Of a stretch of DNA of 64,000 bases, positions 10,214 through 63,599 are shown one piece after another. The notes below the pieces were generated by a model, which saw only the letters and a program-made list of their open reading frames with translations, searched no databases and was not told where the DNA came from. The DNA comes from Prorocentrum cordatum (lineage: Eukaryota > Sar > Dinophyceae > Prorocentrales > Prorocentraceae), in contig CAUYUJ010019072.1 of the NCBI GenBank assembly GCA_963575745.1, forward strand, positions 1 to 64,000, given 5' to 3'. The position numbers and the translations under genes are program-made. Within the stretch, counting starts at the first letter, position 1. Each line of letters opens with the position of its first letter.

Positions 10214-10223
10214 AGCGAGGGAA

Positions 10224-13715: not shown

Positions 13716-14905
13716 CCCCTCCAGGGAGGCCCCGTCTGAGCGAGGAGGGTATCGGAAGCCCAAACTATCTACATGGTTTCGTGCCCCTCCCTCCCCTCCA
13801 GGGAGGCCCCGCCTGAGCGAGGAGGGTATCGGAAACCCGTATTATTTACATGGTTTCGTACCCCTTCCCACCCCTCCAGGGAGGCCCCGCCTGAGCGAGG
13901 AGGGTATCGGAAACCGTACTATTTACATTTTCGTGCCGCTTCCCACCTCTCGAGGAGGCCCCCGCTTGAGCGAAGGGTATCGGAAACACCATATTAACAA
14001 TTTACATGGTTTCGTGCCCCTCCCATCCCTTCCGGGAGGCCCCGCCTGAGCGGAGGAGGGTATCGGAAACTCCTACTAATATACATGTTTCGTGGCCCCT
14101 CCCACCCCTCCAGGGAGGCCCCGCCTGAGCGAGGAGGGTATTGGAAACCCGTACTATTTACATGGTTTCGTGCCCCTCCCACCCCTCCAGGGAAGCCCCG
14201 CCTGAGCGAGGAGGGCATCGGAAACCCGTACCATTTACATGGTTGCGTGCCCTTCCGACCTCTCCAGGGAGGCCCCGCCTGAGCGAGGAGGGTATCGGAA
14301 ACCCAAACTATTTACATGGTGTCGTGCCCTTCCCACCTCTCCAGGGAGGCCCCGCCTGAGCGAGGAGGGTATCGGAAACCCATACTATTTACATGGTTTC
14401 GTGACCCTTCCCACCCCTCCAGGGAGGCCCCGCCTGAGCGAGGAGGGTATCGGAAACCAATACTATTTACATGGTGTCGTGCTCCCCCAACTCCTCCAGG
14501 GAGGCCCCGCCTGAGCGAGGAGGGTATCGGAAACCCATACTATTTACATGGTGTCGTGCCCCTCCCTCCCCTCCAGGGAGGCCCCGCCTAAGCGAGGAGG
14601 GCATCGGAAACCCGTACCATTTACATGGTTGCGTGCCCCTTCCACCCCTCCAGGGAGGCCCCGCCTGAGCGAGGAGGGTATCGGAAACCAATACTATTTA
14701 CATGGTTTCGTGCTCCTCCCACCCCTCCAGGGAGGCCCCGCCTGAGCGAGGAGGGTATCGGAAAGCAATACTATTTACATGGTTTCGTGCCCCTCCCATC
14801 CCTCCAGGGAGGCCCCGCCTGAGCGAGGAGGGCATCGGAAACCCATACTATTTTCATGGTTTCGTGCCCTTCCCACCTCTCCAGGGAGGCCCCACCTCTC
14901 CAGCT
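13716..14905 (+). repeat. 77-bp minisatellite, about 15 copies
   Basis: The unit contains CCTCCAGGGAGGCCCCGCCT, GAGCGAGGAGGGTATCGGAA and CTATTTACATGGTTTCGTGC. Equivalent points at 14471, 14548, 14625, 14702 and 14779 give an exact 77-bp period. CCTCC-AG-GGAGG in every unit can form a short hairpin. It is preceded by the motif at 13639-13670. Translation shifts frame at each copy, so it is not a repeat protein. Confidence 0.95.
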
Positions 14906-30880: not shown

Positions 30881-32575
30881 TGCTGCTTTCCTAGGGGCTC
30901 CAACTTCTAGGTAGGGTCGCACTGGGGTAATTATATCCGTGGCGACCCTCTCGAGCCTCGGGTCCTCCTCCTCGTCCTCCCCCTCCCCCTCCTCGTCATC
31001 CTCATCCCCCCTGTTCTGGAGGGGTGCGCACGGGACCGCATGGGTCCTGATGCGAGGCCCGCGCACGCCTGACCGCGTCGGGGCAGCGCCGAGCGCCACA
31101 GCCCCGCCTGTTCTCAGAGGAACGTCCTCGATATCCTCGACCCTGCCCGCTCCAGGCAGGCCTGAGCGCGGCGCGAGCACCACCGCAAGCTGGCGCCGCT
31201 CGGCGAGTTTAGGCAGCTCGTGCCCGGCCGCTGCGCCGAGCACAGGCTTCTGCCACCCGGCGGCGGCCGGTGCGGTCGCCGCCAGGCTGTCTCCGCTTCT
31301 CTTTGTTATCGGGTGAGCGGTGGGCGGTGAGAAAAGTCGATCGATACGCTCGATAACCGATCCCCAGCTCCTCTCCCCCCTCGCCTTGCCACGCAGGCGC
31401 CTTGACCCCGAGCGCGCCACACGGGAGGAGTGGAGTGGTTTTCGTTTTCCGTCTCCTTCAAAGAGGGCGTGCCCCTGACTGGATGCACATCCGTCGCCCG
31501 ACCCAGGAGGGGGTGGCTGGAATCTGGGAGAAGGTGGGAGCAGCAAGAGGGGGAGGAGAAGAAGTGGAGGGGGGAGGGGGAGGAGGCACCTGGCATTTGC
31601 TAATCACGCAGCGCAGCCATCGCATGAGCATTCAGAGATTAACCCGCAAGGTCGAATTTCACCAGCTGCCTGAACTCGGCCAGTGCCAAGCGATTCCCAG
31701 TATCGGGCAGGGCGATGGTTAAAGCTCCAGCTCGCAGCTCGTTCTTCCTGATCAGGCAGTGCAGCCGCCGCACTTGAACTCCAAATTTAAACCCCATGTC
31801 CGCGAATTGATGGAGGGGTAGAGGCGAGGCAGCATCATGATCATGTGAGGGCCATGGCATGATAGTAGCACAGGTTAGTGTGTCAAGGTATTGCTCCACA
31901 TGCGCTCTTACCTGCTCACTGTAGCAGTCTAAGCGAAGAGAAGAGGCGATGGGAGAGGACACGTTTGTCCTAAGGACCTCACGACCATGCATCCGCCCGA
32001 CCTGCTGCGCCGGTGGTTCACCCTGCAGATCGACGCCAGCGAGCCGTGGAAGTACGACACTACGATGACGACCACGGGCGAGGAGGGGCGCTGCACTCGG
32101 CCCAGCCCTGCCCACCACAGCCACTTCATAAGATGGGCGTCGACCAAAGCTTCGATCGATTGAGACCACATAGGGGATGCCGTGGTTGTCGTTTTGGTTG
32201 AACGCGCCGGTTTCGGCCAGATCCGGGCCCTCGCAGGGGCCCAGCACCCTCGTGTTCCCCGCTCTCGACTCTGCGAACAGCGCCGATGTCGAGATTTCCT
32301 GCCCGCGCGCGTGTCTACCTCACCCTGCAGCCGTCGCTGCTCTTCACCGCTGCTCCTCATCCTCCTGTGCCCGGAGCAACCAAGCGGCATGGAGCAGGCA
32401 CACGCGAAATTGCAACTCTCTACGAGGAGCAGCGGCACTGGCCGTGAAGCGCGAGTGGCACACGAGCCACGGCGGACGGCCCGGGAAGCCGCTGCGGGGA
32501 CTCCGTCTGGCGGAACGGCAGACGAGACCGTGCCAGTCTGCCCTTTCTTCTGCCTCCTCCTCCTTCTTCACTCCT
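30880..32575. other. Unassigned stretch upstream of the intact LINE
   Basis: No gene is firmly supported. A minus-strand frame 32247-31639 ends with fairly natural-looking sequence (MGFKFGVQVRRLHCLIRKNE) and could be a relic exon, but I recognise no family. Confidence 0.4.
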
Positions 32576-32576
32576 C

Positions 32577-33178
32577 ACCCCTCCTCCTCCTCCTCCACCT
32601 CATCCTCCTCCTCCTCCTCCTCCTCCTCCGCCTCCTCCGCCTACTCCGCCTCCTCCTCCTCCTCCTCCTCCTCCTCCTCTCCTCCTCCTCACCCCTCCTC
32701 CTCCTCACCCCTCCCTCCTCCCCCTCCTCCTCCTCCTCCTCCTCCTCTCTCCCCTCCTCCCTCCTCCTCTCCTCCTCCTCCTCCTCCTCCTCCTCCTCCT
32801 CCTCCTCCTCCTCCTCCTCCTCCTCCTCCTCTCCTCATCACCCTCACTTCTCACTCCTCACTCCTCACTCTTCACTCCTCCTCACTCCTCACTGTTCATT
32901 CTTCACTCCACGCCCCTTCTCCTCCTTCCTCCTCCTCCTCCTCTCTCCTCCCCCCCTCCTCCTCCTCCTCCTCCTCCTCCTCCTCCTCCTCCTCCTCCTC
33001 CTCCTCCTCCTCCTCCTCCTCCTCCTCCTCCTCCGTCCTCCTCCGTCCTCCTCCGTCCTCCTCCGTCCTCCTCCTCCTCCTCTCCCTCCTCCTCCTCCTC
33101 CTCCTCCTCCTCCTCCTCCTCCTCCTCCTCCTCCGTCCTCCTCCTCCTCCTCCTCCTCCTCCTCCTCCTCCCCTCCTC
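32577..33178 (+). repeat. (CTC)n composite array at LINE 5' end
   Basis: About 600 bp of CTC/TCC units with internal CACTCCTCACTCCTCACTCT interruptions near 32850-32900 and CCGTCCTCCTCCGTCCTC variants near 33030-33070. The array runs directly into the spliced-leader copy at 33179. Similar TCACTCC interruptions occur in the array on the LINE's 3' side (about 41435-41520). Confidence 0.95.
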
Positions 33179-33200
33179 TCCGTAGCCATTTTGGCTCAAG
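33179..33200 (+). other. Genomic copy of the dinoflagellate spliced leader
   Basis: T followed by C and then CGTAGCCATTTTGGCTCAAG equals the 22-nt conserved dinoflagellate SL (first base variable) with no mismatch. It is not followed by the GT of an SL RNA gene intron but by ATG, so it is a relic incorporated through reverse transcription of a trans-spliced mRNA rather than an SL gene. Confidence 0.95.
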
Positions 33201-33307
33201 ATGCCCAGTTCCACAGGGGAACAAGTGGATACCGCTAGTCCGCGGCCAGTGCCAGGGCTCTCGGGCCCGACAGCCCTTTCTCTTTCCCAAGTGCAGACTG
33301 CAGCACC

Positions 33308-34489
33308 ATGGCTGGCGCCGGCCGAAAGGAGCGCCAGGATTGGGTATGCAGGAGCTGTACGACAAAGCGCGGCAGGCAGCTCATCAACTACGGGACCGCG
33401 CTCAAGTGCCAAGGGTGCAGGCTCCACAAGAAGGATGTGTACGGCGGGCCCGTGCCGCCGAAGGAGCCCTCGACGCGGGTTGCTGCCAAGGGCAAGAAGC
33501 GGGCCCCGTGGACAGCTGAGGGCAAGCTCGAGAGCGAGCTCGCGGCCGTCAGGGCGGAGCTCGACGCTGCCAAGAAGAAGCTGCGCACGCAGGAGTCCGA
33601 CCAGGGCGGGGCCGCGCCCATGCACGTGGACGAAGGCAAGGTGGGCGAGGACGCCTCGGCTGCCGACGAGATCAAGGTGTGCGAGGCAGGCCTGGCCACG
33701 CTCAAGGACGTGCAGCACGACTGGGCCATTGGCCCGCGAGATGATCTCAAGCGCAGGCTCGCCGCCGCCAAGGACAGGCTCTTCGCCGCCAAGCCGCTCC
33801 ACGCGCGGGTGCAGGCGCTGGCCCACAGGCAGAAGAACCTTGCGGACAAGCTCTGCAAGATGGAGCGGGCCGAGCGCGAGGCGGAGGACCGCGTCAAGGA
33901 GGCGCAGGACGAGCTGGAGCTCAAGCGGCAGGGCGTCAGGGAGCTCAAGGCGCAGCAGGTGGCCCTCCAGGCGGAGCAGGCGGCACTACAGCAGCAGGTC
34001 CCTGCCGCGCCAGAGGATCGTCCGCCTGGGCAGTCCATGGAGAACGACGTCATCAAGAACACGGGCGGCATCACCCTCGGCGACCTGGAGCGGGCTCTCA
34101 GTGGGGCCCTGGCCGCTCATCCCGACGGCACCGTGCCGGCCGCGGGCGATCTGCCGCAGCGGCTGGCCACGGCGCTATGGGGGCCCCTCCAGGAGCTCAC
34201 ACTGCGGCGGCAGCGCCAGCGGGCCGACGCTGCGGAGGCAGCTAGCGCTCCTCGCACCCCTGCAGCGCCCGCAGATGGAGACGACGACGACGCCGCCGAG
34301 CTTGGCGCAGGCAGCGCAGGCGGCGCCCCCCCCGCAGCCGCTGCGCCGCGTTGGGATCCCGCCGCGATGGAGCCCGAGAAGCTACGGCAAACCATGGCTG
34401 AGTTCGCACCAGGGCCAGCAGAAGAGTCCAGCGACGCCGTGCTGGCGCGGGCCAAGGAGCTGGCCGTCAGGGGCTTCAATCCTTACTAA
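33308..34489 (+). CDS. LINE ORF1 protein: zinc finger and coiled coil
   Basis: A 393-aa protein starting at an ATG in excellent context (CACCATGG), 107 nt after the SL. Residues 12-37 form a four-cysteine finger (W12, C14, C17, C34, C37; WVCRSC ... LKCQGC). Residues of about 75-230 are rich in Glu, Lys, Ala and Leu with heptad-like spacing (HRQKNLADKLCKMERAEREA), a predicted coiled coil. The C-terminal third is Ala/Pro-rich. Finger plus coiled coil is the usual make-up of LINE ORF1 proteins, which bind the element RNA in a ribonucleoprotein particle. It ends 13 nt before the ORF2 ATG. The ORF1 proteins at 42347 and 62213 share the layout but little sequence. Confidence 0.8.
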   Translation: MAGAGRKERQDWVCRSCTTKRGRQLINYGTALKCQGCRLHKKDVYGGPVPPKEPSTRVAAKGKKRAPWTAEGKLESELAAVRAELDAAKKKLRTQESDQGGAAPMHVDEGKVGEDASAADEIKVCEAGLATLKDVQHDWAIGPRDDLKRRLAAAKDRLFAAKPLHARVQALAHRQKNLADKLCKMERAEREAEDRVKEAQDELELKRQGVRELKAQQVALQAEQAALQQQVPAAPEDRPPGQSMENDVIKNTGGITLGDLERALSGALAAHPDGTVPAAGDLPQRLATALWGPLQELTLRRQRQRADAAEAASAPRTPAAPADGDDDDAAELGAGSAGGAPPAAAAPRWDPAAMEPEKLRQTMAEFAPGPAEESSDAVLARAKELAVRGFNPY

Positions 34490-34502: not shown

Positions 34503-37500
34503 ATGTCCTGCGCACAAGCGATGGCAAAAGGTACTATCACTACCAGCAACGTGACTTCCTGGGGTTCTTTGGCGCCGTGCCTTGAGACCCTCCAGTCGCA
34601 TGTCGTTCTCGTTCAGGAGCATCACCGACGGGACGAGGCGAAGCTCGCCGACCTGCAGCACGAGGTGCTGGACCACGGGTTCGCGGGCATCTGGGCGCCA
34701 GCGGTGGCAGGCCCCACCTCCGCGGAGGGCACGACGGGCGGGGTCGCTGTCCTGGCCCGCAAGAACATCCCCGTCACGGCCCCGCCGCTGCTGCCCTCGG
34801 CGACGCTCTGGCCAGGGCGACTGCTGGCCGCCCACGTGCATTGGGGAGTACGTGGTGGCATTGTCTTCGTGTCGGCCTACCTGGTCGACAGCGTCGGTAT
34901 GAACGAGGTGAACCGTAGCATCTTCGGCGCGCTCACCCGCTACCTCACGAAGCTCACGGCTTCTGGCATCGACTGGATAGTCGGCGGCGACTTCAATGGG
35001 CCTCCCAGCTTCCTGCCTCTTGCGCAGTTGGAGAAGGCGGGGGGCCTTTGGCTAGCGCCGTCGGCCGACACCTGTCGCCCGCAGGTGGGCAGCGGATCGG
35101 TGCTGGACTACTTTCTGGTCGGTGCAAACCTGGCCAGCCGCATCTCGGCTCCGAGAGTGGACGAGTTGGGCATCACCTCCCCGCACCTCCCTGTCAACAT
35201 GGAGCTGCGGGCCGCTGACCTGGACATGCGCGTGAGGGTCCCGATCGCCCCCAGGGCGATCCCAGCGGTGCCGCCCATCGGATGCAGCCGAGGTGTCGAG
35301 GACTGGGCGCCCGCTCTGGCCCAGGTGCGCGCCACGGCCAGCGCCGAGGAGCTGCCAGCAGCCTGGGACGCTGTCGTCAGCACCCTGGAGCAGGAGTTGC
35401 TGGACCGCTACGACCAGGTGGGCGCAGCGCGCAGGCGGTTCGAAGGGCGCGCGGGGCCCATTGCAACTAAGATGGCGCCAGTCAAGTGGAAGCCGCAAGG
35501 GCAGCGTGTCCGACTGGGGCCTGACGTCATCGCGGCCAAGATAGCGGGCCGATGGGCGCGTCACTTCATGGGGGTCAGTGCGTTCCTCGCGAAGGCCAGC
35601 AGGAGGCTGCACTCCGCCAGCCCGCAGTGCGCCCTCCCCCCCGAGCAGTACCATGAGCTTGCGGACTTCGTCGCGAGGGCGCTGGAGTATGGGCGAGTGG
35701 TCATGGACAGCAAGAAGACGCTGGCGCTGCTCCCGCATTGGGTGAGGGCCTTCTTCGAGCAGGGCTTTCGCGTCATCGGCAACACCGACTTCCTGGAGCA
35801 GGCGGGCCGCATCGTCCAGTTCGCCAAGGACGCCTACGCGGACGCGCTCAAGGTCAGGCAGCAGAGCTGGGTCCAGTGGGCCAACGACAGCCTGCGGAAC
35901 GGCGCTGGCAAGGCGCACCGCTTCACCAAGCTGCGTGCGATGCAGGAGGTGCTGGCGCAATGGCAGGGCACTCACACCGAGCTCACCACTGGACGTCCCG
36001 CACAGGCCTCCGTCCAGCAGCAGCAGGTCGCCAGCCAGCACCTGATTTGCGATCGGGAGATGAAGGCCTGGGAGGACGTCTGGTCGTGCCACAAGCTCGA
36101 GGCGCTGGAGAGGCCAGCTGACTTCGACGAATGGGACGACCTAGAGGACCTCACCGTGGAAACGCTGCAGCGGGCCGCCTGCAGCTTCCCCACCACCACG
36201 GCGCTGGGCCCGGCGCAGATCGGCATGCGCGCGCTCACCTTTCTCACGGACGAGGGCGTGTACACCTGCGGCCAGCTCTTTATGAAGTGCGAGGCGCTGG
36301 GGGCCTGGCCTAGCGATAGGCTGTGGCATGCTATGTGCCGCATCCCCAAGGCCTCTGGTGGCTGCAGGCTGATCACGTTGATGCATTCTCTAATCCGATG
36401 GTGGTCGAGGGCTCGTGCTGCGACGTCCAAGGCGTGGCTCACTGCGCACCCCAATGCCAGTATTTGGGGCATGGGCGGCGGCAGATCCTCCTCCGACTCC
36501 GCCTTCGACCTCAACCTCGAGACGGAGATATCGGACTGCCTGGACGAGCACGTGGTAATCGTCATGCTGGACGCGTGGAAGTTCTTTGAGACGATCAAGC
36601 CCGAGTGGCTACTTATCGAGGCGCGGCTGCTGGGCATGCCGCTGCGATTGGTATGGATGCTGATTGAGTTATACAGGCAGCCGAGGCGGCTGCAAGCTTT
36701 CGGCTCGGTGTCCTACGCGGTCGTGTCGCATCAGGGCGTGCTCGCAGGGTGCACTCACGCCTGTGCTATGGTCACCCTGCTCATGTTCAGGCTGCTCGAG
36801 CAAGTACGAGATGCAGGCGTCACCCCGAGGGCCCTCATCGACGACGTCACCTTGCAGTGGCGAGGGAGGCGGCTTTCGCAACTGGGTGTGCTGTGGGCGG
36901 CCACCACCAGGTTCCGCGAGGGCGCCCAGGAGCGAGGCATTGTCGTGCAGCCTACCAAGTCGGGCTACTTGGTCTCATCGGACGCAGCTGCTCGTGAGTG
37001 TGCCCGACACGCGGCGGCCCGCAAGCTGACCAAGATGCGCTGGGCCCGCAACCTGGGGCATGATCTGGGCGGGCGAAGAATCGCGAGGCTCCAGACGGCT
37101 AAGAGGGTGCGGCAGCTCAAGGAGCGGCGCGGCAAGCTGGCAGCCTTCAAAGGGGCAGTGGGCAGGCGCGCCACCTGCTTGTGGAAGACGGGCCTCATGC
37201 CGAGCGCGGCGCACGGGGCTGGGGTGTCTGGGCTCACCGATGATACGTTGCAGGTGCTGAGGGCCGAGGCTGGCAGGCTTGCAGGGGCTCGGCCTGGTGC
37301 GTCGAGCGTCACGGTGTACCTAGCCACACAGAAGGCACGCGAGTACGACCCCATCTACGGCGCCACCTGCGACATTGTGTGCCGATACGCCAGCTGGATC
37401 TGGGAACAACGCACCTCCCTGGCTAGGCTCCACAGGGCCTGGGCCAAAGTCACGGAGCGGCTCGTGGGGCGTCCGTCATGGGCAGAGGCTCGCGGGCCCA

Positions 37501-40500
37501 TCGCATCCGTCACGCTCACGCTGTGGCGCATCGGATGGCACATGTACTCCAGCACGACCCTGGTTACCGACCAGGACATGGCGATCAACCTCCTCACCAC
37601 GTGCCCGAAGGACGTCAGGATGCATCTGGCCGACGGCGTGCAGCGATGGCAGGCTAGGCAGATCGCGGCGCACCATCGCCAGCACGGAGAGGTCAAGCCG
37701 TGGGTACGGGCTATGCGGCTCTGCGTGGGCGACGGGCGCGCGGCGATGGCGGAGGGCCCGTCGGCCACCAGCCTGCGCCACCACTGGGCTGCGGTGGCAT
37801 GGACGCAGCAGGCCCAGCACGACCTTGGGCTGGCGGCGGCGCCGAACTGCAGGGCCTGTGGACATCCATCCGATTCGCCTGGCCACCGCTTCTTCGGCTG
37901 CGAGGTACTGGTGCAGCCGCTCACAGAGGAGGAGCAGGACCAGCAGCTGCCGCCCGAGCCGATGCAGGCCGTCCGCACCTTCATGTGCAACAAAGGCCTG
38001 CAGGAGGGCGGCAGCTTCGAGAGCGCCGACTTCCAAATGTGCCTGCCCTGCATGCCGCCCTTCGCGCCGCCAGCCGCGGAGCAGGCCGAGGTGAAGTTCT
38101 GGGGCCGCTGGCCTAGCCAAGGGGAGGACATGGCCTCTTGCAGCAACGTCGTCTTCACCGATGGCTCTGGCTTCGCGTCCAGCATACCCGAACTGAGGCG
38201 TTGCGGTTGGGCCGTAGTGCAGCTATCCCTCCAGGGATTGCCTGTGCGGGCGGCCTTCGGGGCGCTGCCAGGGCCGCTCCAGACGGTCGGGCGCGCGGAG
38301 AGGCACGCGCTGCTGCAGGCATTGCGGCTCTTGGGGCCGCAGCTTGAGTTCGTCTTCACCGACCTGCTGTCGCTGGAGAAGGAGTGCAGCCACTGGGGGC
38401 AAGAGCTGGAGGAGGCGCGAGCTGCACACGCCACAGTGTGGCGACGGATTCGTGCCCAGCCAGCTCGGCCTGAAGTTAGGTGGATTCCTGCGCATCAGGA
38501 CATGGATGCATACTTGAACCGAGGCCTCCACCCGCTGCTGTACTCCGGCAACATGTGGGCTGACTGGTTCGCGCGGCAAGGAGCCATGCAGCACACCGTG
38601 TCGAAGGTGCACGAGGAGCTCTACAAGTTCGAGCTGCAGCACCACAAGAGCCTGGCTAAGTACGTCGGCTGGGCCATGCAGAGGACCATGCACGCAGGAC
38701 GATGGGATGCGCCCGAGCAGGCAGCCCGCCCGCCAAAGGTGCCTAAGGTGCAGGCGGCCACCGTGGTCAGCCATTCCCTGGTCCGACTGAACGGGACGGC
38801 GACGGTGCTGTGTCGAGCCTGCTGCAGGCAGACCAGCGGGCAGACGGGTCCCACATGGGCGCAGTTCGCGCGCTCAGCCTGCGAGGCCAGCCAGTACACC
38901 GCGCTGCGGGCCGAGGCCATCATCGAGCACGTCGGTGCGCAGCCCATAGTGGTCTCGGAGGCGGGCGAGTTCGCTATGCAGGCGATCGAGCGTGCGGCGT
39001 GCCCTGAAGACTCGGGTCCCAGGCCAGCCGAGCCTGCCCCCTGGGGCTCAGGGGACGTCACCATTGAGATGCAGGGGCACAGGCTGAGGCGCGCTGGGCC
39101 CACCATCTACTGCGAGGTTTGCGTGGCTTGGGCGGCGACAGGCTCCTCTATGGCCCTCGCCCTGCCCTGCGCTGGCCCGCCCAGCGCCGAGGGCAAGAAC
39201 CAGCGGACCTACCTGTCCAACCTCAGGGCGCGGCTCAAGAAGCTGAGCCAAGGGCTGCACCCCAAGACGGGGAAGGTGCTCACCTGGGGAGGTGCAGGCG
39301 AGGCTCCAGACCGCCCCAGAGCACGGGCCACTGCAGCGGCCAGCGCGGCCGCGGGCGACATGGCCTCTGAGGGCGACGGCGCTGCAGAGCGGCCAAGCGG
39401 CAAGCACGTGCAGACGGTGCAGGGCGAGGCGACCTGGCCCAGCCAGGACCACGAGACGTGCGAGGTGCCTGCAGGTGCTGCTGGCTCCAACGAGGCTCAG
39501 ACCAAGAAGCCTGCTCGGCGTGTTCGACGGCAGGAGCTTCTGGAACGGATGCAGCAAAGGCAGCAGCACCTGCTCGTCCAACGTTCTGATATGGCCAGCA
39601 CCAGGGGTGGCAGGGGACCTGCAAAGTGCGGTCCTGAATGCGGCCCCGCCCTGAGTGCTGGCAGGCTTGACAACCCGCAGCGCTCGCGGCCAGGCATGGC
39701 CAGTGACGAGGCTGGCAGGAGGCCTGCGAGCTGCGACCCCGTGAGCGGCCCCAGCACGGGCACTGACGGCGACGGCAGCCTGGCCAACATTGTTCGGCGT
39801 AGTGCTACGGCCTGGGCCAGGGGTGGCAGGGGACCTGCAATGTGCGTGCGTGAGCGCGGCCCCGCCCTGAGCCCAGGATGCGACGAGGACCTCGACGGCA
39901 AGGGCATGGCCAGTGCCAGGGTTGGCAGGGGACCTGCAAAGTGCAGTCCTGAGTGCGGCCCCGCCCTGGGCACTGGCGGCAGTGGACCCATGGGAGCGGC
40001 TTCGCATGTGGAGGACCAGGGGCAGCTGCCGCTGGCTTCTGGGGAGTTGAGCGGCCCCAGCACGGGCACTGGCAGCGACGGCAGACAGACCAACTGTGTT
40101 CTGCGTAGTGCTACGGCCTGGGCCAGGGGTGGCAGGGGACCTGCAATGTGCGCGCGTGAGTGCGGCCCCGCCCTGAGCCCAGGATGCGACGAGGATCTCG
40201 ACGGCAAGGGCATGGCCAGTGCCAGGGTTGGCAGGGGACCTGCAAAGTGCAGTCCCGAGTGCGGCCCCGCCCTGGGCACTGGCAGTGGCCCCCTGGGAGC
40301 GGCTTCGTCTGCGGAGGACCAATGGCAGCCGCCGATGGCGTCGGGGGAGGTGTGCTTACGTGCAACTACGGCTGGTGCCAGGGGTGGCAGGGGACCTGCA
40401 TTGTGCGGTCCTGAGTGCGGCCCCGCCCTGAGCACCAGCACCCACCCTGTTCGGCGACGGAGTACGGCCTGGGCCAGGGGTGGCAGGGGACCTGCAATGT

Positions 40501-41343: not shown

Positions 41344-41437
<94 letters not shown>

Positions 41438-41890
41438 CTCCCCACTCCCCATTCCTCACTCCTCACTCCTCAACCCTCCTCCTCCTCACTCCTCACGCCT
41501 CACCCCTCATCCCTCACCCCTCCTCCTCCTCCTCCTCCTCCTCCTCCTCCTCCTGCTCCTTCTCCTCCTCCTCCGTCCTCTCCTCTTCCTCCTCTCCTCC
41601 TCCTCCTCCTCCTCCTCCTCTTCTCCTCCTCCTCCTCCTCCTCCTCATCATCATCATCATCATCATCATCAGCCTCATCCTCATCCTCATCCTCATCCTC
41701 CTTCTCCGCTTCCTCGTCACCTCGCCTCCTCCCCCTCCTCCTCCTCCTCCTCCTCCTCGTCCCTCCTCCTCCTCCTCCTCCTCTTCCTGCTCCTCCTCTT
41801 CCTCCTCCTCCTCATCCGACCTCCGTCCTCCTCCTCCTCCACCTCCGCCTCCTCCGCTTCCCTTCTCATCATCATCATCATCATCATCAG

Positions 41891-41923
<33 letters not shown>

Positions 41924-42200
41924 TCCTCATCCACCCTCATCACCATCATCATCATCAGCAGCATCATCATCAGCATCATCCCGCTCCTCCTCCTCCTCCT
42001 CCTCCTCCTCCTCCTCATCATCATCATCATCATCTCCCCTCCTCCTCCTCCTCCGCTCATCCTCTTCCTCCTCCTCCTCCTCCTCCTGATCCGCATCCTC
42101 CTCCTCCTCCTCCTCCTCCTCCTCCTCCTCCTCCTCCTCCTCCCTTCCTCCTCATCATCCTCCTCCTCCTCTTCCTCGTCATCCTCCTCCTCCGTCCTCC
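41339..42200 (+). repeat. Composite (CTA)n/(CTC)n/(CAT)n array between two LINEs
   Basis: A pure CTA run (about 41345-41433) is followed by CACTCCTCACTCC-like units, then long CTC and CAT/ATC runs up to the second SL copy. It separates the intact LINE from its deletion derivative. Confidence 0.95.
42184..42200 (+). repeat. Target-site duplication, left copy
   Basis: CTCCTCCTCCGTCCTCC, identical to 44161-44177. The CCG interruption makes a chance match from a plain CTC array less likely. The last base or two may be shared with the start of the SL. Confidence 0.75.
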
Positions 42201-42220
42201 CGTAGCCATTTTGGCTCAAG
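42200..42220 (+). other. Genomic copy of the dinoflagellate spliced leader
   Basis: C followed by CGTAGCCATTTTGGCTCAAG matches 21 of the 22 SL positions, the variable first base being C here. It is preceded by the CTC array and followed by GGGGCTTGCTCC. Confidence 0.95.
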
Positions 42221-42346
42221 GGGCTTGCTCCTGAACTTCCCAACCTCGCCCGAGTGCGGCCATAGGGGCCATTTTGCAGTCACGGCACCCTTGCAACAGG
42301 TGCTAATCCGTCCCCCTTTCGGTTTCCATTCCTGCGCAGGGCTGCC

Positions 42347-43619
42347 ATGGCCTGGCGCGACCTTGCCCCATGGCGCAACGGCGGCGGCGGCTGGCGCGGC
42401 CGCGGTGGCGCCAAAGGGGGTGGTGGCAAGAAGAAGCAGTATGATGTCTGCTCCGCCTGTCGGCACTGGGAGTACAAGGCCTACGGCAACTGGTGTTGCT
42501 CGAAGTGCGGTGGCCTCTACATCGGAGACGCTGCTGGAGCCCCTGGTCGTCGTCCTGGCGGGGGCGGGGGAGCCCAAGCCCAAGGTGCTCAAGGAGGAGG
42601 TGGTGACGGCGCTGACCTACGTGCAGCAGCGCAGGTTCTCTTGGCTGCTCGCCCTGAGTTGCAAGGGCAGCTTGGCGAGTTCGTGCAGCCCCCTCCGCAA
42701 AAAGTTGTCGAGTGGACTCAGGCGCAGCTCAATTACGGTGCCTGTACTGAACGCACACGCCTCACCCGTGAAGTGGAGAATCAAGCTCGTGGTGTTCGTC
42801 TTGCTTCCCAGGACCTGCACCAGCGCAGCTCGAAGGTCCAGCGCTTGCAGGAGCAGTTGGACGAGGCGCAGGCTGCCATGCGCACGGTCCAGGTCGAGGA
42901 AGGAGGCGCAGGCGAGGAAGAAGGCTGCGGACGACGCCGTGGCCGCCTTCCGCGAGGCGGACTGGATCGCCACCAAGCGGCAGGAGCTGGCCGCTGCTGC
43001 TGCCGCGGACTCCGCCACAGGAGTTTGGGGGATTGACGGATCGGGGGGGAGGTTTGCTAAGGATGCCAGACTAAGGAGGTGCGGGTGGGCGTGCGTACGC
43101 CTGTCCACCACCCTCGATGGCATCGACGGTGGCTTTGCAGGCACCCTCTCAGGCCCTGACCAGTCGTCCCCGCGCGCGGGGCTCCTGGCGCTGATTTTCG
43201 TACTCAGGTATACGGTGGGCATAGTTTTGGCTTTCTGCGGTTATCTTCCTGTGGTGCGAGGTTTCCGTAGGCCGCGTGCGGCCCTATGTGGATGTGATAC
43301 GATTGATCTGCGGGTGGTTCTCTGGCAAGTTTTGGATCAGCGTGAAGGTGAGGTTGACCTCAGATGGACCAAGAGCCACCCCACGGAAGCCCAAGTCAGC
43401 GCCCTTTACATCACTCGAGTCGAGCGCCTTTTGAATGGTGCTGCTGATGCATGTGCAATCGAGGCCGCTAAGAGGGCCGAAGTTCCTGACGCGTGCTCGG
43501 CACGCACCCTTTTGCAAGATGATATGCAGGTTTCTATTCTCAGGCGGTTTTTCACCATACAGCGTGATGTTTTTCACGACGTGTGCACGGGACAACGTGT
43601 ACGCGCGCGTAGGGCGTGA
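42347..43619 (+). pseudogene. ORF1-RNase H fusion of the deleted LINE
   Basis: An ATG in good context (GCCATGG) opens a frame with a Gly-rich start, a four-cysteine finger (DVCSACRHWEYKAYGNWCCS, then KCG) and a long coiled coil (SKVQRLQEQLDEAQAAMRTV). Near 42900 a +1 shift is needed; the coil then continues (ARKKAADDAVAAFREADWIA) and passes directly into RNase H: VWGIDGSGG, RWTKSHPTEAQ, LNGAADACAIEAAKRA. The catalytic Glu is Gly here (PRAGLLAL against AERHALLQAL), so RNase H is probably inactive. The stop is at 43617-43619. Confidence 0.7.
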
Positions 43620-45733: not shown

Positions 45734-45801
45734 TTGGCCCCACTGACTCCAGCAGAGACGACGAGCGGGACTAGCCATCCCATCGAGAGAAGTTTGTGGC
45801 C

Positions 45802-55717: not shown

Positions 55718-55964
55718 ATGGCTGACTGCCACGACCTCGACCGGCTGGTGGCGAGGCTGATGCCGGACCTTGGCGCCGAGCTCGCCTCGGCGACGGAGGA
55801 GGCCCTGAGCCGCGAGGAGCGGCCGGGCAGGTCGCCAGATGGCGGAGGAGGAGTGGGAGGGGGGAGGAGGACAGGGGAGGAGACGGGGGGAGGAGGAGGA
55901 GGAAGAGGAGGAGGAGGGGGAGGAGGAGGCGTCGACGACGACGACGACGACGACGAAAACAACC

Positions 55965-56020
<56 letters not shown>

Positions 56021-56022
56021 AG

Positions 56023-56058
<36 letters not shown>

Positions 56059-56094
56059 AGATGTCGACGACGGCTGCCAGCGGCGGCTGGCGGC
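55718..56094 (+). CDS. Candidate host exon with poly-Asp tract, interrupted by LINE
   Basis: ATG 55718 opens a frame beginning MADCHDLDRLVARLMPDLGA, a natural-looking amphipathic start, then Gly-rich and poly-Asp sequence. The frame runs into the target duplication of the minus-strand LINE. If the LINE and one duplication copy are ignored, the same reading frame continues at 62331 into a further Asp/Glu/His-rich stretch. This suggests the LINE landed in the acidic-repeat part of an expressed exon. No family is recognised and a chance GC-rich ORF remains possible. Confidence 0.35.
55931..56060 (+). repeat. (GAC)n microsatellite at the LINE 3' side
   Basis: CGACGACGAC run with AACCACGAC interruption. 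The LINE inserted about 35 bp beyond its end. On the LINE sense strand it reads GTC. Confidence 0.95.
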
Positions 56095-56679: not shown

Positions 56680-59600
56680 GGTTGGCCGTCAGTCTCGAAC
56701 TTACACTTGACAACCGAGTGCCTCTGAAACTGCCACGGCCTCCCAGGGAACTCCCCCAAGTCCACCCCGTCCCCTTCACACGGCTCGGGCACGGGCACCT
56801 CGGGAGCAGACGACGCCTGCTTCCACCCACTGATCTCTCGGGCCAGCAGGGCTTCGTCCAGAAGGGCCGCGTCGGCCTCATCAGACCTATAATCCAGCTC
56901 CTAGACAACATCCGAGGTGCCTCCGACGCCTTCGGTGTCCCAGAACTCACTATCTCCCATCCAGGCGTGCAGCTGGCCTATCCACATAACTAGCTGACGG
57001 GCCCTGAGCTCACACGCCTCGATGAACAGGACTCGCTCAGACGGCACATCCCACAGCCGAGCGCCCTTTTTAGCCCACTGATCGGCCAGGTCACTGCCTC
57101 GCCGACACCAAGTGTCAAAGAAAGTCGAGTCACTCGAGGCCGCGGCGTGGCCTTTCACCTTCCTGACCGTGGCTGAGGCCCCATGCTTAGCCCACCAGTG
57201 CACCCAAAAATGGCGGCTGGGGTTCGACGGGCTGAGGGCTCTCGAGACACACGTCGCACAACCTATGGCGCCCGTGCAATCTGACATCACGGTGAGCGGC
57301 CCATCAGTCGCAGGATCGACTGAGAAGCGCGACAGCATATGAAACGCAAAGTCCTCAGCGTCCCTCGAGGACTGCTCGAGGGACCAAGCTAAGGGCACAA
57401 CTCCATACATGCCACACCTGAACGAGCCATCGTCATTGATGCAGACAGCCGCCCACCCCGCTCTGCGCAGGCCTCCATGCTGAGTATACATAGACGATCC
57501 GTCCACAAACACCTCGCCTTCGAACAGCCAGCCTTCATCCGACAAACCTGAGATGGTTGGCCTCGGGAGCTTCCTCGCATCCAAAGACGTGCACAGGCGA
57601 GGGCAGCAGCCCACGGGCAAAAAAAAATCAGCACATTGCACTCCCTCGCTCGCCACAACTCTCGCGGCCCTGAGAAGCTCAGGCGGGCAGCTTTCGCGAC
57701 GAAGGAACTGCGTGGTGGGACAATCGAACACACGATGCCACAACGTGCCTCGGTCACGGCATCTGGTACACATGCAGTGGGTGGCTTTGCCTTTATCAAA
57801 AAGCCTGCTCTGGCTCCAGTGAGCCCCACAGTTGACGGAACGAAAGGCGGCCTTATGCCTCTTAGCCCATAGCCCTGACGATTCCTGCAGAACAGCCAAA
57901 ACGGGGCCCCGGTGGACCTGCGAAACCCACGGACCCCTCAGACCTTTCAGGGCTATGACACCCGAGGCGGCCCAAGCAGCCTGCTGCACCACTTTGCAGA
58001 CGGCACCAGGCGAAAAAAAACTGCAGATCGACACGCCTCCCTCGCTGGTCAAGAATCAGGCTAGGCTCAACGAGCTGGCACCCAGCTCTCGCAAAGCACA
58101 GGACGGCGGCCTGGGCTGGGTCAGTACACTGCGTCCACGGCGACCTGGCGTCGAGCAGCTCCAGCGCGCGCGCGTGGACCACCTCGATGGCGCGCGGCAG
58201 CAGCATGCCATCCGTCACCCCAGTGGCCCAAGCTTTGGCCACCTCCATGCTGTGCACCACGAACGGGCCCCTGGCGTCGGCCCTCGGCATCGTGCGAATC
58301 CGAAAGGCCAGGCACGAACCAGCGGCCACTCGGCCTTCAGAGCGCAGCGCCGCAATTCTGAGGCCGTGGAGCTTGCCGCCGGCCAGGCCAGTGACTCCTG
58401 AGCCCCAGACCGCCGTGGCACACGGCGACCCGCGATGCAGGTGGCAGGTCTTGGCCCCAGCGGACTGCAGGAGCGCCACCTTGCTCGCCACGCGCTTGGA
58501 CTTGGCCAGGCGCTTGTTCTGCTCAGGCACACGGCGACGGCTGCCATCATTGCCATAACCTCCCAGGCACCTGAGGCCCGAGTGCCGCTGGAGGCCGAGC
58601 ACGGCCCATTGCGCGTCCAGCTCCTTGGCCAGGCTGGCATCAGTGGCGAGCCAGCCCGTCTTGCCCCAGTTGATTCTGAGGCGCCGCTTCTCCAGGCCTT
58701 CGAAAAGCTCTCGAGCCGCAAGCGGGAGCTGCTGGGCGACGAGGCGCTGCGTGCCGACCGCCTGGAGCAGGCAGTCGTCTACCAGGCTCTGGGCACGCAC
58801 CAGCGGGTAGCGCATCACCACTGCCTTGAGCAGCGCGTAGGTGAGGAGCTTGGCCACGCCCACCGCGCAAGAGCAGCCAGCAGCTGTGGCGCCGTTGGCC
58901 TCAATCACGGGCCCGACGCCATCCCCCAGCATCGCTCGCCTCTGCAGGCGGTAGCTGGAGCAGAACGCCCTGCGCAGGGCCAGGGGAAAGCTGGTCACGA
59001 TGCCCTGCTCCAGCAGCTCGTCGTGGCTGATCATCTCATAGTACTTGGTCAGGTCGACCGCCAGCGTGCTGGCACAAAGGCCTGTCCGCTTTGCAAACGC
59101 CACCATCATGTTGTGGACGAAGCCAGCCTTCTCGCACGTGCGGCCAGCCGAGCCCCAGTGGAACGACTCGTCAATCCTGCGCCCCCACTCGGCCACCAAG
59201 GGCTGGCAGATTGGACCAAACACGGGTCCACAGGCTCGCCAAGATGATGGGTCGCACACCGCCAGACGGCTTCGGCAGGAACACCACCAGCAGCAGCCAC
59301 AACGGGCATCTGGTCGGCTCCCGCTCCCAGCACTGCACGATGTCCAGGAACGCCTGGCGGTACTGGACGGGCAGCCAGCGCAGCTGACGGGGGTGGAGCC
59401 TGTCCCACCCCAGACCCGTGCCCTCCCCGTAGGAGGCCAGTACTTGGTCGAGCTCGTCCATGGTGATGGGCCGCAGCTGCTGCCAGCACCCTCGGTCCTG
59501 CTGCCAGTGCAGAGGGTCGGCGTCGCCCGCCCTGTCTGGGTGAACCCACAGGGGCTGCCACTCCGCCATCAGGACCTGCATGGCAGCATCGCCAGCGACA

Positions 59601-60988
59601 GGCAGGCCCTCATCACCGTCATCATCATCATGCTGGACCATCATGGAGGGCACGAGGGAGCCATCCCTGATGAACCTGAAGGCCTGCTGCCCCCCCGCAA
59701 GGGTAGCTGCCTGCTGAGCCCACTCTCTCCATTCAGCAGCTCGCTTGGCGCGGTCACGCGCCTGCAAGCCTCGGGCGTGGAGGTAGATGCAGTCTAGCAG
59801 CCCAAGAAACACCTCCTGCGGGCCCACCTTGAAGGCTAGCCCAATGGAGCGCGGGCCCCACTCCTGCAACTTCCCTGCCGTGGGCCACCAGTCTCCGAAC
59901 ACAAAGCTCTGGATGACCCTGACCCTCGACCCCAAGGCAGCGTGCTGCCAGGGTCTGCCCAGGCCTCGAATGCTGGCCGCGCGCCGACAGGCTGCCAGGA
60001 AGCCAGCCCACCTGCAGGTCTCGGGGCTGGTGGTGGCCTTGAGCGCGCGGGCCCACTCGAGGCGCAGGGGCACCTGCTTGACGACCAGTCCGCGCGAGCG
60101 AGGGGGTGCACGCCGCGGGCCTTCAATCCTGCGGAGGCGGGACAGGTAGTCCTCCACCATGTCCAGCCAGAACTCCGCGGCCTCCTGGACGTCCCCGACC
60201 TTGCCCCCCAGCTCCCAGGCCCAATCCCCGCTGTCAAGCTCTGGCGGCGCGGGCTGCGTCGGCGGAGGGAGCTCGAGGGGAAACCTGGCGGGGCAACTGG
60301 CCTTCGTGATGGTGGCCCTCCTGCGCAGGCCGTTCAGCTCCGTGACCATAGGCAAGTGCGGGTGCATCGGCGCCTGGCTGAGGACCTCCACCTTGCCAAC
60401 ACGGCTGGCCAACACCGTCGAGACCATTGCAAAATCATACTCACTATTGCCACAGGTGGCCTGCCACGGCCTGACAACGACCCCGTCAGCCTTGCTGGCC
60501 CAGCTGGTCAGCAAGTTAGGCTCGATGTTCCAGTCGGCCACGATGATCCACGGCCACTCGAAAGTGCCAAGCCACTCCATCAGCGCGCCCAGCAACACGA
60601 CGTTGTCACCAACGAGCCCTATGCTGTCGACGAGGTAGGCCGAGATCACAAAAATGGGGAAGCCGAGCCCCGTGTTCAGTTTGACCGCTTGTGCTCGGTG
60701 CCCTGGCAGGCCTGCTAAGCGCGCGGGTCGCTCCTCCCGCACAGCAGGGACTGAGGCCAGCACAGCGACGCCCCCTGAGCTGTCCAGCGGCCCTGGCCCC
60801 GTCGACATGGCCTCGGCCCCACTCCAGATGTACCCGGCCTGCCTAGACCACTTCTCAGCCGCGCTGAGCTTGGACTTCGTCTTCAGGCGGTGCTCCTGCA
60901 TGCACACCACGTCCCTTCCAGCACCGACGTCTTTAGCCCACTCCAGCAGCCCTCGGCAGCTCGACCACGCGTTGGCGTTGGCAGACAT
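56169..60988 (-). pseudogene. LINE ORF2: endonuclease, RT, RNase H, zinc tail (2 frameshifts, 1 stop)
   Basis: Read from ATG 60988. Endonuclease: MSANANAW, MQEHRLK, GGVAVLAS, ISAYLVDSIGL, IVADWN (Asp-Trp-Asn instead of DFN), YDFAMVS, MHPHLPM. Then GWDRLHPRQLRWLP and FLPKPSGGVRPIIL of the RT fingers; frame shift near 59250. Motif A ASTLAVDLTKYYEMI, motif C QSLVDDCLLQ. Second shift near 57950-58050. Zinc knuckle CMCTRCRDRGTLWHRVFDC, RNase H EVFVDGSS, SRDAEDFAFHML, VMSDCTG, VKGHAAASS, SDLADQWAKKGA, all catalytic positions kept. A TAG at 56903-56901 interrupts, then the same frame continues through a zinc finger containing nine Phe codons (27 T on this strand) to the stop near 56169. It is decayed but recent enough that most motifs survive. 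Confidence 0.82.
56648..56674. repeat. A27 homopolymer inside ORF2 zinc tail
   Basis: 27 consecutive A on the plus strand, read on the coding strand as nine Phe codons directly before CCKSCG. The length is a multiple of three and keeps the frame. Confidence 0.9.
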
Positions 60989-61064: not shown

Positions 61065-62213
61065 CTAAACTCGCTGCTTCTTTGCTGCACGCTGGGCGAA
61101 GACACCCAGTGAGGAGGCCATGCATCTGATCTTGGCCTTGTCCTCGTCAGCGTTTTGCCCTTTGAAGTCGAACTTAGGTAAGGCACCTCCTCCTTCCTCG
61201 ACGGCAACTCTGACTGCCTCGACCAAGTCTTCGTCAATGTCGAAGTCGGGCACCTCAGCGTCGACGCCGCCTGGGTCGACGGCGTCAGGAGCACCACCAG
61301 CAACGCCAGCAGCCGCAGCGGCTGCGCCAGCTTCAGCCCCGCACTTGGCAGCCTCCCTGTGCTGCTCCTCGCGCATGGCAGCGGCCAGCTCGGCGAAGAA
61401 GGCGGAGACGGACTCGGCCTGCTCCTTGATCTTCTCCGCACCTGGAGCAGCCGCCTGCGCGTACGCCAGCGCCTTCTGGAAGGCCTCGATGCCGCCGACG
61501 GCGATCTGCTCCTTGCTGGTCTCAACTGCAGCCTCGACGTTCTTGACGCGCGCCAGCTCCTCCAGCTCGGCGAGCTTGGCCTCGTGCTCGCGCAGCTGGC
61601 GGACCTCGGCATCATACTGCGCCTGCGCCGCCGCGAGCTCCGCAGCCCGCTCCTCAACACGGCCCTTGGACTTCTCCACTTGACTGGCCTTGTCGGCGCG
61701 GCGCTGCGGGATCTGGGAGAGAGACTTGGAGGCCAGGTCTCCTCCTCCCTCGGGCGGCGGCGGCACAGCGACCGCGCCGAGCTGGCTCTGGGCGAGGCCA
61801 GGCTGGCCTGCCGCCACGAGCAGCTCGCCGGCGGCCGCAAGGAGCTCGGCCCCACCCGCGGGCTCTGGCTCCAGAGGCGCGGCCGCAGCAGGGCGGCGGG
61901 CGCCCTTTGCCCCCCCAGACGGCTGCGGCTTGGGCCACTCCGCCGCATCGAGGTCCCGCCCTCCGCCCTGAGGCCTGGACCACGGCGCTCGCTTGGGACC
62001 AGCGCGCCCGCCACCACCCTTGGACGAGGGCGGCCCAGCAGGCGCAGGCGCAGCGAACTGCTTGAGGAAGGCCACGATCTTGGGCGGCGCCTTGGCTCCG
62101 CACGACCTGCAGGCTGCGCGGGGCAGGTTGCTGGGGCAGCCGCCGCAGCTCCCCGAACAAATCCATTGACATTGCTTCTCGCCCGAGCCCTGGGCACCAT
62201 GCTGCGGTGCCAT
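61065..62213 (-). CDS. LINE ORF1 protein: cysteine cluster and coiled coil
   Basis: A 382-aa intact ORF from an ATG in GCCCATGG context. Residues 15-38 contain six cysteines (CQWICSGSCGGC ... ACRSCGAK). An Ala/Pro-rich middle is followed by a coiled coil at about 160-225 (AQYDAEVRQLREHEAKLAEL), and an acidic segment lies near 320-345. Like the ORF1 at 33308 it probably binds element RNA. It ends 76 nt before the ORF2 ATG. The frame of ORF2 is open through the whole ORF1 region here as well. Confidence 0.75.
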   Translation of the reverse strand: MAPQHGAQGSGEKQCQWICSGSCGGCPSNLPRAACRSCGAKAPPKIVAFLKQFAAPAPAGPPSSKGGGGRAGPKRAPWSRPQGGGRDLDAAEWPKPQPSGGAKGARRPAAAAPLEPEPAGGAELLAAAGELLVAAGQPGLAQSQLGAVAVPPPPEGGGDLASKSLSQIPQRRADKASQVEKSKGRVEERAAELAAAQAQYDAEVRQLREHEAKLAELEELARVKNVEAAVETSKEQIAVGGIEAFQKALAYAQAAAPGAEKIKEQAESVSAFFAELAAAMREEQHREAAKCGAEAGAAAAAAGVAGGAPDAVDPGGVDAEVPDFDIDEDLVEAVRVAVEEGGGALPKFDFKGQNADEDKAKIRCMASSLGVFAQRAAKKQRV

Positions 62214-62297: not shown

Positions 62298-62319
62298 CTC
62301 GAGCCGAAACGGCTATGGC
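62298..62319 (-). other. Variant spliced-leader copy at LINE 5' end
   Basis: Minus strand 62319-62298 reads GC followed by CATAGCCGTTTCGGCTCGAG. It differs from the SL at four positions, all transitions. Two of the changes (A to G and T to C) are at paired positions of the AGCC(A)TTT(T)GGCT mini-hairpin and preserve the pair. Confidence 0.8.
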
Positions 62320-62330
62320 GGGGAGCATCG
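62317..62330 (+). repeat. 14-bp target-site duplication (LINE 5' side)
   Basis: GGCGGGGAGCATCG, identical to 56095-56108. Its first three bases overlap the SL start (GCC on the minus strand), a microhomology. Confidence 0.85.
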
Positions 62331-62347
62331 ACGAGAACGACGAGCAT

Positions 62348-62378
<31 letters not shown>

Positions 62379-62382
62379 GCGA

Positions 62383-62429
<47 letters not shown>

Positions 62430-62483
62430 GCGGCGACGATGACGAGACGAAGGCGACGACGAGCATGACGCCGACGAGTATGT

Positions 62484-62519
<36 letters not shown>

Positions 62520-62566
62520 TGGCGACGACGGCGACGACGACGACGACGGCGCCGACGACGACGGGC

Positions 62567-62600
<34 letters not shown>

Positions 62601-62795
62601 GCATGACGACGAGCATGACGACGACGTCGACAACGGCGTGCATGACGAAAAGCATGACGGCGGCGACGACGACGACGACGACGAGCATGGCGACGACGAC
62701 GGCGATGACGATGGCGACGACGACGACGACGACGACGAGCACGACGACGACGACGAAGACCACGACGACGACGACGACGGTGACGACGACGACGG

Positions 62796-62827
<32 letters not shown>

Positions 62828-63174
62828 GCGACGACGTTGAAGATGTCGACGACGGCGACGTGGTTGACGGCGGAGACGATGGCGACGACGAAGACGACGA
62901 TGGCGGCTACGACCACAATGACTACGTCGACGACGACGACGACGACAGCAACGACGACGGCGGCGACGACGACGACGACGACGACGTGCACGACGACGAC
63001 GACGGCAACGACGACGACGGCGATGCCGACGACGACGGCGACGCTGGCGCCGACGACGACGAAGACGACGACGGCGACGGCTACGACTGCGACGACGGCG
63101 AGGTCGAGGACGACGGCGACGACGACGACAACGACGACGACGACTGACGGCGACAAGGACGACGACAAGCACGA

Positions 63175-63213
<39 letters not shown>

Positions 63214-63251
63214 CGACGGCGACGATGACGACGACGACGACGACGAAGACC

Positions 63252-63294
<43 letters not shown>

Positions 63295-63560
63295 CGACGG
63301 CGGCGACGACGACGAAGACGACGTCAACGACGACGACGGCGACGACGACGACGACGGTGACGGCGACGACGACGATCACGATGATGATCACGACGGTGAC
63401 GACGATGGCGACGACGGCCACCGGAGACGACGACGACGGCAACGACGAAGACGACGGCAACGACGACGGCGGCGACGACGACGACGAAGACGACGACGAC
63501 GACGACGATCACGACGATGATCACGACGGTGACGACGACGGCGACGACGGCGGCGACGGC
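62331..63560 (+). repeat. Long (GAC)n array with GGC and ATG variants
   Basis: About 1.2 kb of GACGAC with GGCGAC, GAAGAC and ATGACG interruptions. All forward frames stay open, giving poly-Asp, poly-Thr or poly-Arg, so the translations are not informative by themselves. Confidence 0.95.
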
Positions 63561-63599
63561 GAAGACGACGACGGAAACCGCGGGAGGCACGGGACGCAC

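Follow-up and report, generated by a model that had tools for sequence, protein, structure and literature searches.

Introduction

The dinoflagellate spliced leader (SL) stands at the 5' end of LINE retrotransposons in a 64,000-nt stretch of the Prorocentrum cordatum genome (contig CAUYUJ010019072.1, positions 1 to 64,000; hereafter the window, meaning the whole stretch analysed). The question raised is whether this leader is a part of the elements inherited as DNA, or whether it comes from the host through trans-splicing of the RNA from which each copy was made. Genomic SL relics in dinoflagellate genes, together with the idea of mRNA recycling, are known from passages of several papers (PMC3229502, PMC6050394, PMC12014239, PMC7245778), and the type of element behind dinoflagellate retroposition is called unknown in the pertinent part of one of them, where Ty1/copia is favoured (PMC6050394). 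What appears to be new here is that LINEs are frequent carriers of the SL, with its apparent re-addition; in the open-licence PMC literature, no report was found of an SL at dinoflagellate LINE ends, nor of LINEs as frequent carriers with re-addition.

Results

Spliced leaders and LINE elements in the window

A perfect 22-nt SL (TCCGTAGCCATTTTGGCTCAAG) forms the 5' end of element 1 (33179..33200, + strand). The SL of element 2 (42199..42220, + strand) matches at 21 of 22 positions, the 21-mer being exact and the first base, C instead of D, the sole difference, while that of element 3 (62298..62319, - strand) carries four transitions. On both strands of the window exactly three places lie within five mismatches of the SL 21-mer, and these are the three SLs of the preliminary description, all of them real. 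A search allowing up to three mismatches returned two matches in the window against a mean of 0.00 in 100 shuffles; limited to that threshold, the shuffle test covers the SLs of elements 1 and 2, and the third copy, with its four mismatches, rests on its position and not on this test. (TCC)n tracts end directly at, or a few bases before, the SLs of elements 1 and 2, and 9 bases separate the SL of element 3 from a (TCG)n tract. An ORF1-like ATG follows after 107, 126 and 84 nt in elements 1, 2 and 3, in keeping with the spacing of about 85-125 nt described earlier.

Each of the SL-headed insertions proved to be a LINE, as had been proposed, with endonuclease (EN), reverse transcriptase (RT) and RNase H domains downstream on the SL strand in elements 1 and 3. 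Element 1 (+ strand) is preceded on the target side by a (TCC)n tract found by repeat search directly 5' of the SL (32553..33178). A 22-nt 5'-UTR motif, GATACCGCTAGTCCGCGGCCAG, begins 27 nt after the SL (33228..33249), its degenerate form having 1,098 matches genome-wide. It is followed by an ORF1-like frame of 393 aa, read as an ORF (33308..34486), with a Cys-rich N end and, by eye, a coiled-coil-like character. Downstream lie an EN domain (34536..35282; Pfam PF03372, E 1.2e-8, with the span taken from a local profile), an RT region of group A (35358..37415; local profile, with no Pfam RVT_1 match on its own) and an RNase H region (37470..38708; local profile). Repeat search placed a (CTA)30 run at the 3' end (41344..41435), ahead of a second (TCC)n tract (41453..42198) which is both the 3' flank of element 1 and the 5' flank of element 2.

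Element 2 (42347..43559, + strand) joins an ORF1-like start to an RNase H end (42972-43559; local profile) across an internal deletion, and is considered an internally deleted copy because only these two parts are retained; the tract resumes from about 44158. Within its 5' UTR lies a probable older, decayed SL relic (42260..42284, + strand; shuffle p about 0.004). Element 3 (- strand) is flanked by (TCG)n tracts found by repeat search on its 5' side (62329..63573) and its 3' side (55933..56072), and comprises an ORF1-like frame from ORF reading (61065..62213), an EN domain (60278..60985; local profile), an RT region in two frames (58030..59899), part of which matches RVT_1 at E 0.00036, below the Pfam cut-off, and an RNase H region (56937..57995; local profile).

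Other features were recorded in the window. Behind element 2, an open frame of 2,663 aa (45775-53766) contains a Ty1/copia-type RT (RVT_2, E 2.5e-10) and is regarded as an element of its own; a reading of element 2 as a copia carrier was rejected, its own pieces being a LINE-type ORF1 and RNase H. Two further LINE pieces, each with RT and RNase H, have no recognisable SL: one (8-2149) runs off the window, and the other (26765-29237), in which no EN match was found, may be a 5'-truncated copy. Satellite arrays occupy 8540-10214 (152-bp units) and 13709-14897 (77-bp units). The ORF1-like frames start with a zinc-ribbon-like CxxC...CxxC stretch in the window (33308-33430, 42347-42520) and in two of the SL-centred loci described below (L010, L023), a stretch which may resemble RanBP2-type fingers.

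Genome-wide SL copies and their carriers

The assembly searched (4.13 Gb, 21,875 contigs) contains 14,218 exact SL 21-mers (7,201 and 7,017 on the two strands), part of which may be SL RNA genes. The reversed-SL control gave zero copies in the same 4.13 Gb, and this result, together with the window shuffles, rules out the SL as a chance match. Genome size and SL are consistent with Prorocentrum cordatum as described in passages of PMC10666404 and PMC11453091; for two Symbiodinium genomes, 496 and 244 putative SL sequences are given, by another method, in the corresponding part of PMC8045281.

Twenty loci of about 10 kb (L009-L028) were centred on the first 21 SL sites listed, one locus holding two sites. 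EN and/or RT domains were found on the SL strand in 15 of the 20 (L009, L011, L014, L017, L020, L025, L026, L028; L013, L015, L016, L018, L024; L021, L022), whereas L010, L012, L019, L023 and L027 gave no firm identity on reading, with some of their ORFs passed through Pfam. A same-strand LINE domain lies within 7.5 kb downstream of a random window point with a chance of 0.156, at which the binomial p for 15/20 is 5e-9; it is 0.0016 if the chance is set at 0.4. Two profile matches did not follow this pattern and were disregarded, both at E slightly below 0.001 (L028, on the minus strand; L014, upstream of the SL).

LINE identity and RT groups

The elements combine a LINE-related RT with an APE-type endonuclease in the same element and have no long terminal repeats. 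RVT_1 scored above the Pfam cut-off in L013, L015, L016, L018 and L024, and PF03372 (endonuclease/exonuclease/phosphatase) in window element 1, L013, L016 and L018. The RT of L013 matches both an R2 chain (E 6e-14) and a LINE-1 ORF2 chain (E 1.5e-13), while that of window element 1 was matched through local profiles only and that of element 3 weakly through Pfam. No LTR-like repeats were found in 14 of 15 elements, whose 3' ends were picked by hand, and in the remaining one (L026) a 59-nt stretch recurs within the last 1.5 kb. None of the 15 has a poly(A) tail, the longest A run being 5; as the LINE 3' UTR abuts a trinucleotide tract, tail and target tract are indistinguishable.

An RT tree of 13 elements contains one 100/100 split, which separates two groups with 10-20% identity between them; the branching is otherwise mostly open. 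The 5' UTRs of the two groups are mostly unalignable apart from one short motif. This 22-nt motif, GATACCGCTRGTCCGCGGCYAG, lies 27 nt after the SL in LINEs of both groups, in surroundings that mostly cannot be aligned, and was seen at window 33228-33249 and in L009, L015, L016 and L029-L040. At the other end, three group B LINEs terminate in TCAAGGT(T)ACGTTC just before a TCC tract (L013 6697-6710; L024 3328-3341, minus strand; L015 6811-6823, the same site as L008 1434-1446), presumably a likeness of an SL-exon end with its 5' splice site, as in SL RNA.

LINE copies picked without regard to the SL

Two samples started from the LINE and not from the leader. The first took the first 12 places, in list order, out of the 1,098 matches of the 5'-UTR motif, and every one (12/12) has an SL or relic 5' of the motif. 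The SL is exact at the fixed 27-nt spacing in L029, L030, L035, L036, L037 and L039, exact at a longer spacing in L040, followed by a 15-nt relic in L031 and L038, changed by one mismatch in L032 and L034, and in L033 reduced to a relic with 7 mismatches. L029-L031 coincide with the insertions L009, L015 and L016, in which the motif had first been noticed.

The second sample came from a protein search with the EN of L017 as query, which yielded 142 scored matches from 17,824 first-look candidates. Among the non-query copies sampled, an SL or decayed SL occupies the expected place in 8 of 9 (exact in L042-L045, L047 and L048, with one mismatch in L046 and five in L050), the sequence of the ninth (L049) being N there. 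More broadly, 16 of the 25 non-query EN matches with at least 85% identity have an SL or relic; the other nine had no exact SL, were not inspected, or met an N run or a contig edge. A 5'-UTR word of the L017 family occurs 19 times, directly preceded by an exact SL in 15 cases, the query copy included; L046, with its single mismatch, is the 16th with an SL, and the remaining three were not inspected. In these samples, then, the readable copies gave no ground for the objection that full-length elements mostly have other 5' ends.

Stacked, decayed and displaced relics

At 1,202 places genome-wide (8.5% of exact SLs) an SL runs directly into the 3'-terminal 15 nt of a second SL, and at 165 places (1.2%) into the start of a whole SL, the first base of the inner whole SL being T in 99 of 100 listed places, by eye. 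The former arrangement is, judged from the sequence, that of an older SL cut at its internal TAG and joined there to a new one (CCGTAG/CC, the slash marking the join). A 22-nt DCCGTAGCCATTTTGGCTCAAG at the 5' edge and an inner relic truncated at an AG inside the SL are the features of a dinoflagellate SL relic, and both are present here; in a passage of PMC3229502 the relic is defined by truncation after nucleotide 7, at an AG.

Some inner copies are decayed beneath an intact leader. L038 has mutations in its inner relic but none in its outer SL, and decayed inner relics lie under exact outer SLs in L025 (p 0.0 as printed), L022 (p 0.003; 56 nt inside) and L028 (p 0.007), where p values come from single-base shuffles, per site, and are uncorrected for the number of sites. 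Stacked or displaced relics reach p<=0.01 at 7 of the 21 exact SL sites in the 20 loci, and the second site of L015 has p 0.016. No clear relation of tract class to relic stacking was seen by eye.

A displaced junction was found in L047, where the SL is joined at ...CTCGAG/GCCGATT, a point 74 nt into the 5' UTR of the sibling copies. In L042 and L044 the sequence ending at this junction AG resembles a decayed SL at p 0.006, which under stricter gap costs becomes p 0.13 and is not significant; among the other siblings, the same relic gives a weak signal in L045 (p 0.04) and a non-significant one in L041 (p 0.30). The L047 junction AG is probably the end of an old SL relic, and the 5' UTR of the L017 family may consist of captured flank (57 nt) plus that relic, which suggests that 5' UTR is gained and lost by acceptor choice. 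This proposed flank and relic lie in the first 90 nt after the SL of L041-L046, L048 and L050, and L047 lacks them. A passage of PMC2488372 describes the trans-splice acceptor of Amphidinium as an AG, the choice of which is to some degree free. The stacked and displaced junctions look trans-spliced and appear hard to explain as inherited DNA.

Reverse transcription reach and insertion tracts

By eye, the D position of 100 listed purine-tract SL sites is occupied by T in about 76, G in 11, A in 9 and C in 4. A purine tract is an unlikely source of a T in front of CCGTAG, so the first nucleotide of the SL was usually copied, and the idea that reverse transcription ran to the very 5' end of its template is borne out often, if not always.

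SLs follow 13 pyrimidines in 4,007 of the 14,218 copies (28.2%) and 13 purines in 1,345 (9.5%), the two being taken one base apart, against a background of 1.32% for either tract at positions of the window and L009-L028; 62% of SL copies have no pure 13-nt tract upstream. Seventeen of the 20 SL-centred loci have a tract at the SL, the exceptions being L014, L018 and L019. SLs outside TCC/GGA tracts (L014, L018, L019, L034, L037) lie in AT-rich, (CA)n or plain sequence, which may represent either other targets or lost tracts. Where a tract was present both at the SL and downstream (16 loci plus window elements 1 and 2), the first downstream tract belonged to the same class at 15 of 18 SL sites, by hand count, with L012, L022 and L023 as exceptions.

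Short target duplications would be hidden within microsatellite sequence, and the evidence for an insertion boundary is therefore the tract itself, present on both sides in most loci. The expected coincidence of the SL with a target-duplication boundary accordingly holds as a tract edge in 17/20 loci, while the duplication proper is undefinable within a microsatellite.

Tract orientation differs between the two families examined: copies with the 22-nt motif have nine pyrimidine and no purine tracts, three more being without a clear tract, and the L017 family has no pyrimidine and seven purine tracts (Fisher p 9e-5, from hand-entered counts). Orientation looks like a family trait in these two families. 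The same was not upheld at the level of RT groups, since group B is mixed, with L022 on the purine side and L013, L015, L016, L021 and L024 on the pyrimidine side.

Discussion

It is highly probable that LINEs of at least two deep RT groups were retroposed from mRNA bearing the host's trans-spliced leader. Trans-splicing as the cause of the SL junctions would account for their AGs, and a trans-spliced mRNA as template, the central proposal of the preliminary description, is the most likely reading in view of these AG junctions, the stacked and displaced relics and the samples that started from the LINE. The observations suggest that mature RNA already bearing the leader serves as the template of LINEs, and that an inserted copy, once expressed again, can receive a new leader.

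A cycle of four steps may be envisaged. A LINE copy would be transcribed from upstream of its own 5' end, since re-splicing inside an old SL needs an RNA that starts upstream of it. The host would then add an SL at an AG, as read from the junctions. This acceptor could be the AG inside the old SL (CCGTAG/CC), with a 15-nt relic left behind; the terminal AG of the old SL, probably in L047 and presumably in clean single-SL copies; or an AG in flanking sequence, which would leave a 22-nt relic or captured flank plus relic. The SL both ends in AG and contains AG, so each insertion carries possible acceptors, through which the old leader can be either replaced by a new one or overlain by it in the following cycle. 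The LINE enzyme would copy this RNA to its first nucleotide, a step supported for most listed purine-tract copies by the T at the D position, and the cDNA would enter trinucleotide tracts of TCC or GGA through nicking followed by target-primed reverse transcription, as the EN and RT domains suggest, the tract context itself being observed.

The SL might instead be a fixed part of the LINE 5' UTR, inherited as DNA, such as a promoter captured once and kept by selection. Its same-nucleotide position in most siblings fits this, and a genomic SL has been proposed, in a passage of PMC6050394, to be able to act as a promoter. However, the junction of L047 at another AG, the 1,202 truncated and 165 whole-start stacked relics and the exact SLs lying over decayed ones led to the rejection of an inherited promoter; relics cut at the internal TAG, moreover, need transcription from upstream of the SL, and the SL is shared by two RT groups with mostly unalignable 5' UTRs. 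We regard inheritance as very improbable. The main open alternative accepts trans-splicing but holds that a few source loci have an ordinary acceptor, SL-bearing insertions being mostly dead ends and relic re-splicing a rare, minority route. Exact 15-nt relics stand on only 8.5% of exact SLs, with whole-start relics adding 1.2%, so that most copies could come from few source loci, and one clean junction is common to siblings of one family. Against this, no SL-less full-length sibling was found among the readable ones (12/12; 8/8), and stacked or displaced relics were detected at a third of the exact SL sites in the 20 loci (7/21, plus the second site of L015). A few-source origin is possible, but on balance we consider it unlikely.

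Two further explanations concern the target. SLACS, CZAR and CRE of trypanosomatids are LINEs that insert into the SL exon of the SL RNA gene, and an element specific to that site would likewise have an SL directly upstream in an SL-using organism. Here, by contrast, the SL is whole and unsplit at the 5' edge, upstream lies a microsatellite in 17/20 loci, and downstream a same-class tract in 15/18; insertion into SL RNA genes was rejected on these flanks, and its probability is close to nil. The tract context could also arise from the 5' join only, through microhomology between the TCC at the cDNA end and TCC repeats, and at many listed sites the T and CC of the SL do continue (TCC)n in phase. 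Such homology is lacking in the lineage that sits in (GGA)n (7/7 non-query copies with a tract) and leaves the same-class downstream tracts unaccounted for, which makes this explanation improbable, though less so than either inheritance or SL-gene insertion.

Taken together, retroposition from leader-bearing mRNA admits a wider reading, to which we give about an even chance. The LINE 5' end would be regenerated in each cycle by the host spliceosome and not inherited, and SL relics would act as portable trans-splice acceptors. Unrelated LINE groups would all rely on one host leader to complete their 5' ends, gaining flank-derived 5' UTR via an upstream AG and shedding it via a relic AG (L041-L048), and the same machinery would be the dinoflagellate retrogene engine. 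This would be a way for a LINE to keep a complete 5' end that it does not encode, by means of the host leader and its AGs.

In a genome of 4 Gb, the SL allows LINE copies to be counted by a tag that marks their 5' ends exactly. Of the earlier suggestion that it tags full-length copies, the part that stands is that it marks a trans-spliced template; a fixed full-length end is not what it marks, as the acceptor shift of L047 and the deletion in element 2 illustrate. Genomic SL counts read as retrogene counts may largely count LINEs. The findings also bear on which enzyme made the dinoflagellate retrogenes: Ty1/copia is favoured in the passage of PMC6050394 mentioned above, yet here LINEs themselves are tagged.

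Comparison with known systems

The present elements can be set beside several others in which LINEs, simple repeats or leaders meet, and the resemblance is partial in each case. Site-specific LINEs of microsatellites, which insert into simple repeats, are known; the elements described here are likened to them by insertion context alone, the hosts being different. In flatworms, SL pieces at LTR and LINE loci likewise suggest that SL-bearing retrotransposon transcripts were integrated, although that case concerns 597 discarded loci with partial leaders, and the passage in question contains no analysis of element ends (PMC12582326). In Hydra, the SL starts about 30% of TE Iso-Seq reads according to the relevant passage (PMC12220107), an observation at the RNA level, in contrast to the genomic element ends reported here. 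The L1Tc/ingi elements of trypanosomatids are, similarly, LINEs with a fixed 5' end in a host that practises SL trans-splicing but, unlike the present ones, are described in the part of PMC8190864 concerned as giving unspliced transcripts from an internal promoter, Pr77, with a 5' ribozyme. A 5' HDV-like ribozyme of the L1Tc type was rejected for element 1, where an Rfam search of 33100-33700, covering this element only, returned no match at E<=1.

The closest parallel lies within the dinoflagellates, in whose retrogenes genomic SL relics were reportedly described by Slamovits and Keeling in 2008. As far as the passages cited in the Introduction go, those relics and the present ones are alike in the SL, in the AG-truncated relic and in the idea of mRNA recycling, but their carriers are host genes, whereas most of the carriers sampled here are LINEs. 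To that picture the present analysis adds the insertion tracts and the acceptor shift among genomic siblings.
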